Below, in pieces: positions 5,227 to 17,905 of a DNA stretch of 33,435 bases. Numbering within the stretch: position 1 is the first letter of the stretch; every line of letters starts with the position of its first letter. A program made the translations under genes and the position numbers. The notes below the pieces were generated by a model, which searched no databases, was not told the DNA's origin, and saw nothing but the letters and a program-made list of their open reading frames with translations. The stretch spans positions 1 through 33,435 of the forward strand of contig CAMZIV010000004.1 in NCBI GenBank assembly GCA_947307355.1, in the 5' to 3' direction. The stretch is from an uncultured Candidatus Saccharibacteria bacterium. GTDB taxonomy: Bacteria; Patescibacteriota; Saccharimonadia; Saccharimonadales; Saccharimonadaceae.

Positions 5227-6570
5227 TTAATAATCTGTGTTGATTAAAGACTCAAAATAGAGTTTTAATTCCTCAGCAATAAACTCATCTTTTTCGTAAA
5301 CATTTTGCAGTTCAGCAAGAAACTTTGGCGTTTGGCGTTTAATTCTCTCGGTGCGGTATTTTTCATATTCCGCCGCTTCAGTTTCCGAAAGTGCCCGCGG
5401 GAAATTACGACCTTTGTAATGTAATAATAATTCTGGCAACCTCGGATCATGAAAATCCGGATTAAAATCTGCCAAACTATTCTCATCTGCATTTCTCACG
5501 GCGTTTACTTTCGCACGGTCCGGATCATCAAGAAATCCTTCATAGATCGCCGCTTCCGGCTCTACGGCCGGCGGAAAATCTGGCATTTTTTCTCTTTCCT
5601 CACGCATCCTTTCGGCAAAATCCGGGGATTTAAGCAACTTCTCCAAGTTTTTATCAACAGTTTCTTTATCTAGTTTAATCTTTTCCCAGCCATCATTTTT
5701 ATCAAGCACCGAAAGCGGCGCCACCGCCGGACATTTATTCAGTCCTATTTCTTTCACTACCGGATAGACCGATTCGCGCTTTAGTACTTCATCTAAATCA
5801 TAACGAAGGTCATATACTAGCACATTCCCATTTCTTCCCGCCGTGAGCGGAAAAGCCACGGTAGTTTTATTAAATTCCGAAGGATATCTGCCACATGCAT
5901 ACACAAACGGTTTTTTATTCTCCAAATTCACGTATTTTTTCACATCATTTTTGTTGCGAATACTAAACAAAAACTTAAACAAATCCGGTTGTTTATCTCG
6001 GATTAATCCCGCCACCGCGATTGTAGCATACACATCAGACAAAGCATCGTGCGCATGCTCATGAGAGAGCCCATTCATTTTAGTCAGAAGTTCGAGTCGG
6101 TTAGTTGGTTTACCGTCTTCTGTAAATGGCCAATTAATACCCTCCGGCCTAAGCGCCCGAGTTAGTCTCACCACATCGAGCATATCCCAGCGACTGCGTC
6201 CATCCTTCCATTCGTATTCATATGGATCATAAAAATTTCGCCAAAACACCGCGCGCATAAACTCATCATCAAACCGCACCGTGTTGTAACCAACCACCAC
6301 TGTATCCGGCGTAAAAATCTCTTCTGTCACATATTTCGCAAACTCGGCTTCAGAAATTCCGTCTGCGAGCGTTTGCTGCGGCGTGATTTTGGTAACCATG
6401 ATGGCCCCCGGACTCGGCAAAGCGTCATCCGTCATTTTCACCAAAATATTCACCGGCTCGCCAATCGGATTCAATTCCATATCCGTCCTCTGCCCAGCAA
6501 ATTGCATAATTCTATCAGAACGCGGGTTCAGCCCACTTGTCTCAAGGTCATAAAAGAAAAACGATTTCAT
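5227..6570 (-). CDS. sbcB: Exodeoxyribonuclease I
   Basis: This enzyme degrades single-stranded DNA 3' to 5' and acts in recombination and mismatch repair. The N-terminal DEDDh nuclease domain shows FYDLETSG (Asp and Glu), VGYNTVRFDDEF, and HAHDALSDVYAT with the catalytic His-Asp. The blocks RNFYDPY and ALRPEGINWP are hallmarks of SbcB rather than of DnaQ-type exonucleases. With the start chosen here the protein is 447 residues, near the 475 of E. coli ExoI. I chose ATG 6570 because a TATAAT box ends six bases upstream; a TTG start six codons earlier would include that promoter. It is a single-gene unit behind a terminator. Confidence 0.93.
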   Translation of the reverse strand: MKSFFFYDLETSGLNPRSDRIMQFAGQRTDMELNPIGEPVNILVKMTDDALPSPGAIMVTKITPQQTLADGISEAEFAKYVTEEIFTPDTVVVGYNTVRFDDEFMRAVFWRNFYDPYEYEWKDGRSRWDMLDVVRLTRALRPEGINWPFTEDGKPTNRLELLTKMNGLSHEHAHDALSDVYATIAVAGLIRDKQPDLFKFLFSIRNKNDVKKYVNLENKKPFVYACGRYPSEFNKTTVAFPLTAGRNGNVLVYDLRYDLDEVLKRESVYPVVKEIGLNKCPAVAPLSVLDKNDGWEKIKLDKETVDKNLEKLLKSPDFAERMREEREKMPDFPPAVEPEAAIYEGFLDDPDRAKVNAVRNADENSLADFNPDFHDPRLPELLLHYKGRNFPRALSETEAAEYEKYRTERIKRQTPKFLAELQNVYEKDEFIAEELKLYFESLINTDY

Positions 6571-6576
6571 ATATAT

Positions 6577-6605
6577 ATTATATAACAAAAAAATCCCCAG
6601 GTCAT
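6577..6605 (-). promoter_or_regulatory. sbcB promoter (leaderless, inside upstream terminator)
   Basis: TATAAT (6577-6582) ends six bases before the sbcB ATG, predicting a leaderless message. The position for a -35 box (ATGACC at 6600-6605) matches poorly and falls inside the terminator hairpin at 6595-6615, so the promoter may depend mainly on its -10 region. Confidence 0.5.
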
Positions 6606-6615
6606 AGACCTGGGG
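6587..6615 (-). terminator. Intrinsic terminator after the 153-residue membrane gene
   Basis: A nine-base-pair stem CCCCAGGTC/GACCTGGGG with a three-base loop is followed on the minus strand by A and seven Ts. It sits seven bases past the stop codon at 6622-6624. Confidence 0.92.
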
Positions 6616-6621
6616 TAGAGA

Positions 6622-7083
6622 TTATTTGCACCACTCGTTAAGCAAATTAATACTTGCCGCGGTGTCTCTATGAGACTCCTCTATGAATGCCTTTCTCTTT
6701 CTTATTTTTTTGTTCTCTTCTCTCATCTTTTTAAAGAGAAAAGCTCTAGCCGAATAACGGCTTGATATTATAAGAACACCCATATCAGCAACAAAGAAAC
6801 AACCGAATGTTATTGAATAATACAGAATCGTAAAGAAAGCCGTAAAATACCAAGGACCTTCTGCTACCCATGAATTACTATTGAAATGGATTATTAATGC
6901 TGAGCCAACAGCATAAAATAAAGTCATAACATGGATTACCAGAGATAAAACCTTGAACGGATATCTTATTTTCCAACTTCCGTCTTTCTTTTTTAACGAA
7001 GGTAAGAAAATTCCTGCGAAAACTGTTAAGATAATTAAGATAGAACCGAATAAAAACTGATACCAAAAAGTATTTTCACCCAT
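6622..7083 (-). CDS. Small membrane protein A (three helices, basic coiled tail)
   Basis: The 153-residue product is not recognised. It has three hydrophobic segments (about residues 7-27, 44-66 and 77-106) and a basic C-terminal helix rich in Lys, Arg and Glu that ends NLLNEWCK. The same length and layout recur in the gene at 8814-9275, and both genes have near-identical promoters, although sequence identity is low. AGGAG lies eight bases before the ATG and supports the start. The leader is about 60 bases and contains a small hairpin. It lies downstream of the FISUMP gene and ends in a strong terminator. An accessory subunit of an envelope complex is one possibility, without direct support. 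Confidence 0.75.
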   Translation of the reverse strand: MGENTFWYQFLFGSILIILTVFAGIFLPSLKKKDGSWKIRYPFKVLSLVIHVMTLFYAVGSALIIHFNSNSWVAEGPWYFTAFFTILYYSITFGCFFVADMGVLIISSRYSARAFLFKKMREENKKIRKRKAFIEESHRDTAASINLLNEWCK

Positions 7084-7111
7084 AGTGATCTCCTCTCTAT
7101 AAATGTACTTA

Positions 7112-7151: not shown

Positions 7152-7180
7152 ATTATACCACACATGCTTATTTTTGTCAA
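7152..7180 (-). promoter_or_regulatory. Consensus promoter with extended -10 (membrane gene A)
   Basis: A perfect TTGACA (7175-7180), a 17-base spacer and a perfect TATAAT (7152-7157) preceded by TGG lie on the minus strand. The 29-base block differs at only two positions from the promoter at 9306-9334. It starts in the gap behind the FISUMP stop codon, so gene A is probably expressed independently and strongly. Confidence 0.88.
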
Positions 7181-7193
7181 GACGCTTATGCTT

Positions 7194-8765
7194 TTATCTG
7201 GCTACACAGCGGAGAGATCTACCTCTCCAACCATCTTGGGAGTTGTTGAATTTGAGGGTATCAGACTTAAAGTCTAAATTAAACTCTTTTGCGCTAGTAT
7301 CTATGGTACTAGTATAATAACCCCCAGATTCACCAGCGTATTGAAGCGAATTATTTCTCATTACCCCTGCACGGTTAAAGTAAAGTGGTGCCGAGAAGAA
7401 TCCAAGATCCAATTTGCTGCTATCTGTTGAAGGATAATAGCTACTAAGGATAGCAAAGTCACTCTTGGTAGCATCAGATGCATACACCGGCATTCTCCAC
7501 CCCTTAGGACAAATTGAATTCTTTGGATTATTAGCCGTATTGCTGGCTGTACTTGAAGAAAATTCAGATAGAGTATTAGTTGCCACCATCGCAATCCAGT
7601 TATAATAGTTCCCCATATGATAGTGCATTTGCAACGGTGTAGGGTCATTGGTTTGATAATATTTACCTCTATCGTAACCTGTTAGATAGTTACACCATGG
7701 GCTAGCGCCAGTACATTCACTCTTAACGAAATAAACATCTGTTTGGAACCAATTACCTACATCTACAGATTTAATAAAGTTTTGATCGTTGCTCCAGGTA
7801 ACACCACCACTAGCATTAGGGGTAAGAGTGTCCCTCGGTGGAGTCCAAGTAATTACCCCATCAGCCTCAGAATAACCATCGGCAGCGGTATATTTATTGT
7901 TGTTATCTCTACCATTCCAGGTGTTTAGATCGGTGTTTTCAGATGTGAGCGCCGCCACATTAGTAGGGGTAGTCTCGAGGTCAAGATCGAGATTTTGGGT
8001 CATCCAACATTTGCCATCTTTTGCCTTGAGAATCCAATAAAGTTTGTTATCGCGAATATCTTGCACCTGTAGCTCGGACTCAGTGTCGGCTGCCGCACAA
8101 ATATCAGAATTCATATCCTGCATCACATAATACCCCTGGGCAGTTTTAGTTTTGCCATTGATCCTATACGCATAGGCGAGGTCAGGAATAATAATATTTG
8201 CGGTGATTTCAAAATTAAGAGTAGTAGAATACGCTCCGGTTGGAGTGTCATAATCCACCTTGCTACCGATGTTAATTGTGGTGGTATCAGGGGTGGCGCC
8301 GGTTGGTGCATCGGTCTCTTTAAGGATACTAGAGAGAGCGATTGGGTTAAAGCTATCAGTATTATCGATAGAAATACCCCAACGGTTATTATCGCTGGCG
8401 TTTGCGGCAAATTCGGCCGCCGTCCTGCCCCCAGTAACACTAGAGAGTGCCGGAATTGTAGGATAGTCATTTAATGTCGCATCAAGGGTATCGGAAGTAA
8501 GATCAACAGAGGTAGTAGAAAGTACGATTGTGTAACCACCGCGAGCGTTAGTAGCCGCTCTTACCAGTAGTGGAGTTTGCCCAAAAATACCATTATTTGA
8601 GGCCTGCAAATTCAATATCACATCACTTTGGACGTCAATCGCTACCGATTCAGCGAGGTTCAAATTCACCCCCATTTCATCAGCAAAAACCGGCGCGTTA
8701 AGAGAAAAAATGAGCATGAGAAAACCCGCTACGCTAAAAGAAATTTTCTTACACCCAAACCTCAT
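7194..8765 (-). CDS. Secreted surface protein with C-terminal FISUMP domain
   Basis: The 523-residue product starts with a signal peptide (about residues 1-28, ending near VFADE). An N-terminal Ser/Thr/Asp-rich, beta-type region to about residue 195 is not recognised. The C-terminal region (about 200-523) matches the Fibrobacter succinogenes major paralogous domain pattern, with CWMTQNLDLDL, ICPKGWRMP, GYYTSTI and a final GRSLRCVAR. Several cysteines (ICAAA, KCWM, ECTG, PWCN, ICPK, RCVA) could form disulphides outside the cell. No lipobox or cell-wall sorting signal is visible. The ATG lies six bases after a -10 box, so the message is probably leaderless. An adhesin or other surface-exposed role is a guess. 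Confidence 0.8.
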   Translation of the reverse strand: MRFGCKKISFSVAGFLMLIFSLNAPVFADEMGVNLNLAESVAIDVQSDVILNLQASNNGIFGQTPLLVRAATNARGGYTIVLSTTSVDLTSDTLDATLNDYPTIPALSSVTGGRTAAEFAANASDNNRWGISIDNTDSFNPIALSSILKETDAPTGATPDTTTINIGSKVDYDTPTGAYSTTLNFEITANIIIPDLAYAYRINGKTKTAQGYYVMQDMNSDICAAADTESELQVQDIRDNKLYWILKAKDGKCWMTQNLDLDLETTPTNVAALTSENTDLNTWNGRDNNNKYTAADGYSEADGVITWTPPRDTLTPNASGGVTWSNDQNFIKSVDVGNWFQTDVYFVKSECTGASPWCNYLTGYDRGKYYQTNDPTPLQMHYHMGNYYNWIAMVATNTLSEFSSSTASNTANNPKNSICPKGWRMPVYASDATKSDFAILSSYYPSTDSSKLDLGFFSAPLYFNRAGVMRNNSLQYAGESGGYYTSTIDTSAKEFNLDFKSDTLKFNNSQDGWRGRSLRCVAR

Positions 8766-8771
8766 ATGGTT

Positions 8772-8780
8772 ATTATAGCA
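8772..8780 (-). promoter_or_regulatory. Extended -10 promoter of the FISUMP gene (leaderless)
   Basis: TGC precedes TATAAT (8772-8777) on the minus strand, and six bases separate it from the ATG. The -35 position falls in the terminator hairpin at 8789-8807 and does not match the consensus. Confidence 0.6.
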
Positions 8781-8781
8781 T

Positions 8782-8807
8782 AAAAAATCCCCGGGTAAAT
8801 ACCCGGG
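8782..8807 (-). terminator. Intrinsic terminator after membrane gene B
   Basis: CCCGGGT and ACCCGGG form a seven-base-pair stem around a four-base loop. On the minus strand GGA and then six Ts follow. It lies just past the stop of the gene at 8814. Confidence 0.9.
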
Positions 8808-8813
8808 AGTTTC

Positions 8814-9275
8814 TTATTTTAATAAATCCAGCAAACTTCTGCTGCTGCGGACAAAATCTTGGTTTTCAGCGTATTTTCTTTTCATTTGTTTTTTATCTAG
8901 TTTAGTGTTTTTGCGTTCAACTTCTCTCTGAAGCATATTTTCCCTGATATTGGAAAGAAAAGTCATTTCAAGAAGCATCACGCCTCCGTAAATTACCCCT
9001 ATTGCCATCAACAAAGGTAAAAATATTGCGGCCGCCATGTCTGCGTTGATCTTTTTAGTAAGAAATGCGATTATTTCGTCGTAAGATTCAACAAACAGCA
9101 AAATGCCAAACACTAATGCCGAAAACGCAGAGACGATTGAAAATTTTTCATCTGGGCCATCTTCTACAAAATAGCCGTTTTCTCCCCTTCTAATATCGGG
9201 AGAAACAAATCCAATCACCCCTGCTGCAATTAAGAAAATCGGTGCCAAGATCATCCAAAAATTAAAGTGCATCAT
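8814..9275 (-). CDS. Small membrane protein B (three helices, basic coiled tail)
   Basis: This second 153-residue product is also unrecognised. Hydrophobic segments lie at about residues 6-24, 46-64 and 81-107, followed by a charged helix (REVERKNTKLDKKQMKRKY) and the end SLLDLLK. Topology and length mirror the protein at 6622-7083. A GGAGGG ribosome-binding site six bases upstream supports the first of two consecutive ATGs. The gene has a consensus promoter behind the FKBP gene and a terminator before the FISUMP gene, so it forms its own transcription unit. Distant paralogy with protein A is inferred from layout, not from clear sequence identity. Confidence 0.75.
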   Translation of the reverse strand: MMHFNFWMILAPIFLIAAGVIGFVSPDIRRGENGYFVEDGPDEKFSIVSAFSALVFGILLFVESYDEIIAFLTKKINADMAAAIFLPLLMAIGVIYGGVMLLEMTFLSNIRENMLQREVERKNTKLDKKQMKRKYAENQDFVRSSRSLLDLLK

Positions 9276-9305
9276 ATATCCCTCCTTTTATACGAACATC
9301 AGAAA

Positions 9306-9334
9306 ATTATACCACACATGGTTATTTATGTCAA
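9306..9334 (-). promoter_or_regulatory. Consensus promoter with extended -10 (membrane gene B)
   Basis: TTGACA (9329-9334), a 17-base spacer and TATAAT (9306-9311) preceded by TGG lie on the minus strand, starting seven bases past the FKBP stop codon. The spacer is almost identical to that at 7158-7174. The leader would be about 25 bases and contains GGAGGG. Confidence 0.88.
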
Positions 9335-9341
9335 CAGTAGA

Positions 9342-10055
9342 TTAGTACTGAGTATCGTAATCTATACCGTAGTAAGCATATTGGAGTTTCATATAAGCGG
9401 TGTCTAGCTCAGTAGCAATCGCAGTGCGTTCTTCGGATTTGTTCTTGGCCATCACCATAAATTTAAGAGGTTTGTTATAACCGCCACAAATTTCCATCGA
9501 ATCACCATAAGCTAGAGCGCCAGGCACAGTAATGATACGAATGCCATTAATATGCATACCAGCTACCCCTGTAGTCCAGCCTTCAATCATGCCTAGAGAT
9601 GCATCAAGAATCTTTGCAAACGAGGAAGGACTATCGTTGTTGTCGAAAGAAGAGTCAAAAATCGTCTCATCTGCGCACCAGCCCACATAGTAAGCATAGT
9701 AATCAGAATCATCAGCGGTAAGCTCGCGACCATTACCCACTACAAGGTCTTTAGTTGTCACGGCATCGCTATTTGCCGAAGCTTCATTATAAGCCTTGAT
9801 CTCTGAGTGATACTTATAAAAAGTATTAAAATCACTCTGAGAATAAGATTGGAATCTGGCCAACACGTCACTATAGGCCTCTTCGTATTCCATCAATTTT
9901 TCTTCGGAAATGGTGGAAGTGGTATCGGTGGTACCTTTACCGTTGCTTAAAATAATCGCTGCATAACTTGCAATAATTGAACCGAGCATCACAAATGCAA
10001 TCAAGGAAATCACAATACGCTGCTTCGGGCTAGTCTTTAGCTCTTTTTCATTCAT
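9342..10055 (-). CDS. Membrane-anchored FKBP-type peptidyl-prolyl isomerase
   Basis: The 237-residue product has a basic N-terminus, one transmembrane helix (about residues 14-36), a Ser/Thr-rich linker, a helical stretch, and from about residue 100 an FKBP-like domain. That domain shows VGNGRELTADD, YYVGWCADETIFDSS, MIEGWTTGVAGMHINGIRIITVP and ALAYGD, following the FKBP pattern of E-G-W..G..GM..G..R.I..P..LAYG. It would sit outside the membrane and help fold secreted proteins. Two cysteines lie in the domain. AGGAG before the ATG supports the start. Isomerase activity is uncertain because several active-site aromatic residues cannot be matched with confidence. It occupies the place where secY usually follows L15. 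Confidence 0.8.
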   Translation of the reverse strand: MNEKELKTSPKQRIVISLIAFVMLGSIIASYAAIILSNGKGTTDTTSTISEEKLMEYEEAYSDVLARFQSYSQSDFNTFYKYHSEIKAYNEASANSDAVTTKDLVVGNGRELTADDSDYYAYYVGWCADETIFDSSFDNNDSPSSFAKILDASLGMIEGWTTGVAGMHINGIRIITVPGALAYGDSMEICGGYNKPLKFMVMAKNKSEERTAIATELDTAYMKLQYAYYGIDYDTQY

Positions 10056-10075
10056 AATAACTCCTATCTATAATA

Positions 10076-10084
10076 ATTATACCA
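10076..10084 (-). promoter_or_regulatory. Extended -10 promoter of the FKBP gene
   Basis: TGG precedes TATAAT (10076-10081) directly after the T run of the structured element at 10093-10201. The -35 position (GTATTA at 10099-10104) lies in the element's outer arm and is a weak match. The leader is about 15 bases and contains AGGAG. Confidence 0.55.
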
Positions 10085-10092
10085 CAAAAAAA

Positions 10093-10201
10093 CTGAGATA
10101 ATACTTTCGGGACACGTGTCCGGCCGGCCCATCGCCATGGGCGGCCGGCACTAAATCCTCGCCTTGCCAGGCTCCGGACTGTCCCGAAAAGTATTACTCA
10201 G
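10093..10201 (-). repeat. Structured inverted-repeat element, copy 2 (terminator-like)
   Basis: Arms at 10093-10113 and 10181-10201 pair over about 20 bases and enclose a GC-rich core. Read on the minus strand the core is GTCCGGAG, a hairpin CCT-GGCA-AGG, CGAGGATTTAG, then a long hairpin containing CCCAT-GGCG-ATGGG. Seven Ts follow the second arm, so it should end L15 transcripts. The core matches the element at 197-308, while the arms and two inner stems differ by paired changes. The first arm overlaps the last codons and stop of the L15 gene. Confidence 0.75.
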
Positions 10202-10661
10202 CTTTTTTAGTTGCAGGTTTCTTTAGAATAGCAACTTTTTTGAATGAGCCACCAGCTTTTTTGATAGCTTCAATTGCAGTCTTTGATGCAAATTGAGTTT
10301 CTAGATCGATTTTTGCGGTAAGCTCACCACGAGTGATGACTTTTACCTTTACAAATGGACTAGAAATAAGAGATGCTTCAGCGAGAGCGTAGTTATCAAC
10401 TTTGCCTTTAAGCTCGTTCAAACGATCAGTGTAAACAACTTCAGCCTTAGCGTGGAAGGATTTAAAACCTTTGAGCTTTGGAATAGCTTGCATGATAGCA
10501 CGTTGGCCGCCCATGAAGCCGGCTGGCATTTTGCTGTGACCGGTACGAGACTTTTGACCTTTAGTACCACGACCAGCAGTTTTACCCTGACCAGCAGAGA
10601 TACCACGACCCTTACGAGAAGGACGAGTATTCTTTTCTACGGTTAATTCATTGTATTTCAT
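10194..10661 (-). CDS. rplO: 50S ribosomal protein L15 (uL15)
   Basis: L15 binds 23S rRNA and joins late in large-subunit assembly. The conserved Gly/Arg-rich N-terminal region is intact (KGRGISAGQGKTAGRGTKGQ, then RTGHSKMPAGFMGGQ). The 155-residue product ends in a Lys/Ala-rich tail (KKPATKKAE). Its ATG overlaps the S5 stop codon in TAATG, with no L30 gene between them. It is the last ribosomal gene of this segment; no secY follows. The final codons form part of the structured element at 10093-10201. Confidence 0.96.
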   Translation of the reverse strand: MKYNELTVEKNTRPSRKGRGISAGQGKTAGRGTKGQKSRTGHSKMPAGFMGGQRAIMQAIPKLKGFKSFHAKAEVVYTDRLNELKGKVDNYALAEASLISSPFVKVKVITRGELTAKIDLETQFASKTAIEAIKKAGGSFKKVAILKKPATKKAE

Positions 10662-16824: not shown

Positions 16825-16833
16825 ATTATAACA
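16825..16833 (-). promoter_or_regulatory. Possible extended -10 promoter before ugd
   Basis: TGT precedes TATAAT (16825-16830) on the minus strand, formed by the last codons of the epimerase gene. Nine bases separate it from the ugd ATG, which would leave a leader of two or three bases. There is no clear -35 box. Confidence 0.4.
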
Positions 16834-17869
16834 TATAAAAGGTTTTATACCAGTTCGCAAAGGTTCTTAGACCATCGCGAAGTTGCGTGGTTGGTTTAAA
16901 GCCAAAATCTTTTTCTAAAGCAGATGTATCTGCGTAAGTTACCGGCACATCTCCTGGTTGCATCGGCACCATTTCTTTATGCGCTTCAAAATCGTAATCT
17001 TTTGGCAATACACCGGCTCGTATTAATTCTTCTTGTAAAATTTTTACGAAGGTAAGTAAATTTTCTGGGTGCGAGTTGCCAATGTTATAAACCTTATATG
17101 GTGGAAGAGGCAGACCGTCTTTACCTTCCTTTTTCTCTGGAGCTTTTGCCATCACGCGAATTACACCCTCAACAATATCGTCTATGTAAGTAAAGTCACG
17201 CTTACAGTTACCATAGTTAAATATTTGGATTTTTTCACCTTTTATTAACTTGTTAGTAAATCCAAAGTAAGCCATATCTGGACGGCCAGCTGGTCCATAA
17301 ACAGTAAAGAAGCGGAGACCAGTAGATGGAATATTATATAGTTTAGAATATGCGTGGGCTAAAAGCTCATTGCTCTTTTTGGTAGCCGCATACAAACTTA
17401 CTGGATTATCTACTTTGTCATCCACAGAGAATGGCACTTTTTTGTTGCCACCATAAACAGATGAAGAAGATGCATATACCAAATGCTCCGGCATATAGTG
17501 GCGACAAGCCTCTAAAATATTATAAAAACCAATAATGTTGGCTTCAATATAGGCGTCTGGATGATCTATGCTGTAGCGTACGCCCGCTTGTGCGGCCAAG
17601 TTCACTACAATGTCTGGATGATATTTTTTGAACAAACCATCAACCGCCTGCTTATCCGCCAAATTACCTTTAATGAATTCAAAGTTTTTGTATTCGGCAA
17701 GTTGCGCCAAACGGTGAATTTTTAGTTTTACATCATAATAATTATTGACACTATCAAAACCAATTACTTTGACGTCTGGATTTTCTGTACAAACTCTTTT
17801 CGCTAACGCAGCACCAATAAAACCGGCCGCACCAGTAATTAGAATTGTCTTCTTCCCAAACTCAATCAT
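16826..17869 (-). CDS. NAD-dependent UDP-glucuronate 4-epimerase
   Basis: This extended short-chain dehydrogenase inverts C4 of UDP-glucuronate to give UDP-galacturonate. The NAD site is GAAGFIG (13-19), the catalytic pair is Tyr160 and Lys164 in SLYAATKKSN, and SSSSVYGGNKKVPF and LRFFTVYGPAGRPDMA are typical of the CapI/LspL group. Length (347) is usual. The neighbouring Ugd supplies the substrate, which supports this call over a UDP-glucose epimerase. The ATG lies seven bases behind a -10 box, so the message is probably leaderless, and this gene starts a promoter-defined sub-unit of the island. Confidence 0.88.
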   Translation of the reverse strand: MIEFGKKTILITGAAGFIGAALAKRVCTENPDVKVIGFDSVNNYYDVKLKIHRLAQLAEYKNFEFIKGNLADKQAVDGLFKKYHPDIVVNLAAQAGVRYSIDHPDAYIEANIIGFYNILEACRHYMPEHLVYASSSSVYGGNKKVPFSVDDKVDNPVSLYAATKKSNELLAHAYSKLYNIPSTGLRFFTVYGPAGRPDMAYFGFTNKLIKGEKIQIFNYGNCKRDFTYIDDIVEGVIRVMAKAPEKKEGKDGLPLPPYKVYNIGNSHPENLLTFVKILQEELIRAGVLPKDYDFEAHKEMVPMQPGDVPVTYADTSALEKDFGFKPTTQLRDGLRTFANWYKTFYML

Positions 17870-17876
17870 ATATTAT

Positions 17877-17905
17877 ATTATACCATTTCTGTCTATTTTT
17901 TTCAA
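17877..17905 (-). promoter_or_regulatory. Promoter of the epimerase-ugd-LCP segment (leaderless)
   Basis: TTGAAA (17900-17905), a 17-base spacer and TATAAT (17877-17882) preceded by TGG lie on the minus strand. Seven bases separate the -10 box from the epimerase ATG. The promoter stands at the border between the AT-rich centre of the island and its conserved assembly genes. Confidence 0.75.

Follow-up and report, generated by a model that had tools for sequence, protein, structure and literature searches.

About a third of first genes in the genome of an uncultured Saccharibacterium appear, judging by sequence, to be transcribed from the exact start codon and to have no leader. The case came to light in a window of 33,435 nucleotides, one contig of a 658,670-bp genome in 54 contigs. 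An initial annotation of this window had proposed that four genes – metG, sbcB, a FISUMP-like gene and an epimerase gene – start transcription on or next to their ATG, giving coordinates (6570–6582) that cover the sbcB case only. We consider it very likely that these four starts, and those like them elsewhere in the genome, belong to leaderless genes with extended −10 promoters.

Predicted leaderless starts in the window

All genes, promoter elements and terminators described in the window lie on the reverse strand. The metG gene (308–1723; TIGR00398, 434 bits) encodes methionyl-tRNA synthetase and has a predicted leaderless start at 1723, with a −10 box TAAAAT at 1730–1735 that is assigned by its spacing and by the alignment of relatives. 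The exodeoxyribonuclease I gene sbcB (5227–6570; NF008746, 490 bits), whose product is closely related to proteins from ruminant-gut and other Saccharibacteria assemblies, has a predicted leaderless start at 6570 and a TATAAT box at 6577–6582. The identities of both genes are firm. A FISUMP-like secreted protein gene (7194–8765; TIGR02145, 4e-6, under the curated cut-off) has its predicted leaderless start at 8765, preceded by an extended TATAAT box at 8772–8777 with TGC directly 5′; the box reads TGCTATAAT, then 6 nt, then ATG. The fourth gene, an NAD-dependent sugar epimerase/dehydratase (16826–17869; PF01370, 3.7e-56; predicted leaderless start 17869), has a TTGAAA-17-TATAAT promoter with TG at 17877–17905 (an 11/12 match), its box reading TGGTATAAT, then 7 nt, then ATG.

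The gaps between −10 box and ATG are exactly those originally proposed: 6 nt for metG, sbcB and the FISUMP-like gene and 7 nt for the epimerase. The absence of a Shine–Dalgarno (SD) site from these four starts also held up, with no SD 4-mer within 20 nt 5′ of ATG. Three contrasting genes had been described as carrying AGGAG-type sites, and such sites lie 5–7 nt 5′ of their ATGs: GAGGAG at the leadered gene at 7083 (AGGAG core at 7090–7094), AAGGAGG at the leadered gene at 9275 (9281–9287) and AGGAG at the leadered FKBP-like gene at 10055 (10061–10065). Perfect TTGACA-17-TATAAT promoters with TG (12/12) precede the first two, at 7152–7180 and 9306–9334, respectively; the products of these two genes (153 aa each, function unknown) are not detectably related.

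Two other arrangements in the window resemble these starts. A UDP-sugar dehydrogenase gene has an extended −10 TATAAT (16825–16830) 9 nt from its ATG (16815) and is probably a near-leaderless, intermediate case with a leader of about 3 nt. At 9281–9311, 5′ of the gene at 9275, the −10 box of the perfect promoter is followed by 6 nt and then by ATG-TTC-GTA-TAA, which ends just before the SD; this three-codon ORF may be a leaderless mini-uORF, or may be due to chance.

Two initiation modes at first genes

We examined −10-to-ATG distances in a 319-kb sample, about half of the genome, that held 272 genes starting with ATG and encoding at least 100 aa, with starts called by a simple longest-ORF caller that takes the 5′-most ATG. 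The histogram had been predicted to peak at 6–7 nt, and a sharp peak is found there. Among 168 first or lone genes, 52 have an exact TATAAT at these distances (37 at 6 nt and 15 at 7 nt), compared with 0–4 at any other distance. Viewed from the promoter side, 55 of the 138 TGNTATAAT sites in the sample lie 6–7 nt before an ATG ORF, and another 26 have an SD-led ORF within 90 nt downstream. Where TGNTATAATN6 leads directly into an ORF of 60 codons or longer, the first codon is ATG in 43 cases, GTG in one and TTG in none; a search of the sample for GTG or TTG leaderless starts yielded hardly any.

When one mismatch is allowed, a box at 6 or 7 nt is present in 60 of the 168 first genes and an SD 4-mer in 62, while none has both. 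The remaining 46 have neither signal, and their starts may be miscalled. The 16S rRNA of one genus member (L067) and one family member (L065) retains an intact 3′ end (GGATTACCTCCTTTCT); the anti-SD was read in these relatives, the 16S gene being unassembled in the genome itself. Together, the mutual exclusivity of box and SD and the intact anti-SD bear out the earlier suggestion that two initiation modes coexist.

An extended −10 signature and abutting terminators

Aligning the 77 box-bearing starts gave the consensus T-R-T-G-N-TATAAT. Counting from the first T of the box, −3 is T in 71 of 77, −2 is G (TGN) in 59 and −4 is R in 67, although the starts had been selected without regard to these positions. 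A search of the 77 starts for a general −35 consensus found a slight TTG excess at spacer 17 (10/77), which indicates that there is no strong −35 overall, though single genes (metG, the epimerase) do have one. Extended −10 (TG or TRTGN) promoters carry TRTGN 5′ of TATAAT and have a weak or dispensable −35. The starts described here share the TRTGN-TATAAT sequence and the weak −35, but differ in that the element is placed so that the start point would coincide with the initiation codon. Consistent with the A of ATG serving as +1, for which a pyrimidine excess at the preceding base is expected, a pyrimidine immediately precedes the ATG at 90% of box-bearing starts, compared with 53% for SD starts and 38% for internal ATGs.

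Terminators abut the promoters of several of these genes. The strong intrinsic terminator of the gene upstream of sbcB (6595–6615) has its stem end 24 nt from the sbcB ATG, and another strong intrinsic terminator (8789–8808) ends about 24 nt from the ATG of the FISUMP-like gene. Between terminator and ATG, both loci contain nothing but a T-tract followed by the −10 box and its 6-nt spacer. Including three more in the sample (19–21 nt), terminators end 19–24 nt from five box-bearing ATGs.

Separately, the intergenic stretches 186–312 and 10083–10208 each fold into a long AT-rich stem topped by a branched head rich in GC (RNA z-scores −8.6 and −10.2). With A and T runs on either side, they resemble bidirectional terminators; an inverted repeat of similar kind, its loop also GC-rich, is present at L010:2366-2486. 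These elements possibly represent a mobile or terminator-associated repeat family.

We considered whether the AT-rich hexamer could instead be a ribosome-facing signal – an unstructured or S1-binding, SD-less leader – on transcripts that begin further upstream. The relatives do have S1-domain proteins and IF3 (the assembly itself has a single S1 match and an incomplete IF3), and A/T-rich SD-less leaders have been discussed for other phyla (PMC5397173). Against this, a TATAAT fixed at 6–7 nt with TRTGN upstream is a polymerase signature, the TTG at the −35 position of metG is conserved, terminators lie immediately upstream, and in the divergent pairs with 14-bp spacers described below an upstream start would fall within the opposite gene. 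We regard this explanation as improbable.

The proposal that transcription starts on or next to the ATG thus draws support from the TRTGN element, the pyrimidine at −1, the abutting terminators and the conservation described in the next section. In the leaderless model, the housekeeping RNA polymerase would read TRTGNTATAAT, with a −35 that is mostly weak or absent, and would begin 7 nt after the last T – the A of ATG – or one base earlier with a 7-nt spacer. The resulting transcript, starting with AUG, would have to be translated independently of an SD, presumably by 70S or IF2-bound ribosomes that recognize the AUG directly. Operon-internal genes and some first genes would retain SD-led initiation.

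Box position is conserved at orthologous starts

The spacing TATAAT-6-ATG is kept in seven of ten sbcB homologues (53–82% protein identity) despite differing upstream DNA; the other three (L030, L034, L038) have no box at 6–7 nt. In an alignment of metG with 29 relatives (about 68–79% identity), 29 of the 30 rows have a box at 6–7 nt, and the TTG about 17 nt further upstream, at the −35 position, is also kept.

Of the 30 rows aligned for murC, 18 have the box exactly 6 nt from ATG, seven have it at 8 or 10 nt (implying leaders of 2–4 nt) and one reads GATAAT. The four remaining rows have an SD instead, and in all four murC lies downstream of an overlapping co-directional gene. In L147 this gene is tsaE (PF02367), 52% identical to the tsaE that is divergent from murC elsewhere; the other three upstream genes have a similar S-E-Q-(E/A)-M N-terminus. 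This pattern suggests that initiation mode follows gene context. A candidate murC −35 within tsaE (TTCTTG, antisense to conserved EQE codons) is not claimed, as coding conservation explains it.

Since the 5′-most ATG was taken as the start, the ATGs could have been miscalled, with the true starts being downstream ATG, GTG or TTG codons that have their own SD and belong to ordinary short-leader genes. However, N-termini are conserved from the called ATG in the sbcB homologues (MKSFFFYD) and in MurC, and miscalling leaves the exact 6-nt box-to-ATG conservation unexplained. Its likelihood is very small, below even that of a ribosome-facing hexamer.

The leaderless-type signal in the genome, genus and class

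Across the 659-kb genome, TATAATN6ATG occurs 121 times, compared with 10 for the reversed pattern, and TGNTATAAT-N6-ATG (TGNTATAATN6ATG) occurs 98 times, compared with zero. In the 319-kb sample, 0.94 internal ATGs per 1000 have TATAAT at 6–7 nt. The same pipeline applied to 50 kb of E. coli K-12 returned 0/31. Although A and T make up about 59% of the sampled genome, and an AT-rich genome will often place TATAAT near an ATG, chance is refuted by the reversed controls and by the roughly 1 per 1000 internal ATGs compared with 31% of first genes, and retains a negligible probability.

Each of the 66 genus members that were searched has 32–111 instances of TGNTATAATN6ATG, with 0–2 for the reversed control. 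Counts range from 1 to 90 in other genera of the family, with g182, g172, g4 and g173 elevated, and are mostly 0–20 in the rest of the class. When the looser TAnnnT is allowed, the 6–7 nt peak persists in other family members (70/283 first genes), which suggests that the mode is family-wide and that consensus TATAAT boxes are enriched in the genus. Other Patescibacteria classes exhibit weaker 6–7 nt peaks, in small samples with too few genes to quantify.

Divergent genes with 14-bp spacers

Of the divergent pairs in the sample that are less than 80 bp apart (n=15), eight have a box on both sides and six on one side. The most compact form of the proposed arrangement would be two divergent leaderless genes with a 14-bp spacer and overlapping, opposed −10 boxes. 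The spacer CATNNTATAATTATANNATG was identified in 24 of 75 genomes of the genus (g1) and in one other genus (G303), with zero hits for reversed controls; none of the remaining class genomes sampled contains it. The pairs it separates include tsaE/murC, ung/tdk, glyS/ABC transporter and epimerase/sugar transferase. Most, but not all, of the loci read have real ORFs on both sides; at a few, one side does not open a gene, and in L063 this short side is 23 codons. In three further genomes (L041, L046, L054) the short side is five codons long and appears to lead into a tRNA-like sequence (judged from translation), while the opposite side has a predicted leaderless gene, which in L041 and L046 is release-factor-2-like (judged from its N-terminus).

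As in known bidirectional promoters (PMC10268837, PMC12825309), whose symmetric −10 boxes overlap in opposed orientations and direct divergent starts 7–25 bp apart, a single CATNNTATAATTATANNATG palindrome supplies both −10 boxes, overlapping and oppositely oriented. CAT is followed by G at 63 of 90 sides (overlapping loci may double-count a few sites), so that CATG provides the TG of the opposite gene's extended −10. The base pair at one gene's predicted +1 is the −15T of the other. The start-to-start distance implied by the sequence is 15 bp, in contrast to the 18 bp that is optimal for bidirectional promoters (PMC10268837) and typical of most bacteria, though not obligatory. The 14-bp units also differ from known bidirectional promoters in that each start codon overlaps the opposite gene's extended −10, the two genes are just 14 bp apart and both transcripts would be leaderless mRNAs; the spacer itself has no room for a leader.

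From the overlap of the opposed −10 boxes we infer that polymerase would be bound in one orientation at a time. We think it probable that in this genus the 20-bp palindrome CATGNTATAATTATANCATG constitutes a complete two-gene start unit, in which both start codons serve as +1, the −10 boxes overlap, and each CAT contributes its T, with the following G, as the TG of the other gene. Such a unit would couple essential genes (e.g., tsaE/murC) through mutually exclusive polymerase binding, without a leader.

A further crossed-promoter arrangement, CATGNTATAATN{0,4}ATTATANNATG, whose spacer is longer, is present in 19 of 75 genomes of the genus. It was seen at the murC start in L144, L149, L150, L159 and L165, with the −10 at 8–12 nt from ATG, which implies leaders of a few nt.

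Relation to known leaderless systems and implications

Leaderless genes with a −10 motif adjoining the ORF have been described in Deinococcus-Thermus (PMC12340547) and Actinobacteria (PMC3160421, PMC3898074), where about 20–40% of genes are reported to be leaderless. The TA-like class of PMC3160421 is recognized by a −10-like hexamer at a fixed distance of about 10 bp from the start codon, by the lack of an SD in the same genes, by an mRNA 5′ end on or within a few nt of the start codon and by conservation of the signal at orthologous starts. The genome described here has such a hexamer and no SD in the same genes, its predicted 5′ ends fall on or next to the ATG, and the signal is conserved at metG and sbcB.

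The likeness to the Deinococcus-Thermus and Actinobacteria systems extends to a −10 a few bp before the start codon, the lack of an SD, SD-led genes alongside and a comparable fraction of genes. The differences are a near-consensus TATAAT with extended TRTGN in place of a loose TANNNT, ATG as nearly the sole start codon, a small-genome Saccharibacterium as host, and counts raised in a single genus and some of its relatives, not class-wide. The texts of PMC12340547 and PMC3160421 do not mention Saccharibacteria, and partial coverage of the literature turned up no report of leaderless genes in this group.

Most of what has been charted of leaderless initiation comes from Actinobacteria, Deinococcus-Thermus and archaea. 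With about 30% leaderless-type starts, a Saccharibacterium that has a small genome and probably depends on a host would represent an independent case. Within a single class, genera differ strongly in their use of such starts, which bears on the timing of, and the reasons for, switches between SD-led and leaderless initiation; tsaE-murC presents that switch at one locus: predicted leaderless when divergent, SD-led when murC follows tsaE. In practical terms, gene-finding programs built around an SD or a leader may call leaderless-type starts at the wrong position, and expression constructs for Saccharibacteria should have the −10 set against the ATG. The 14-bp divergent units, finally, would be extremely compact natural two-gene promoters.
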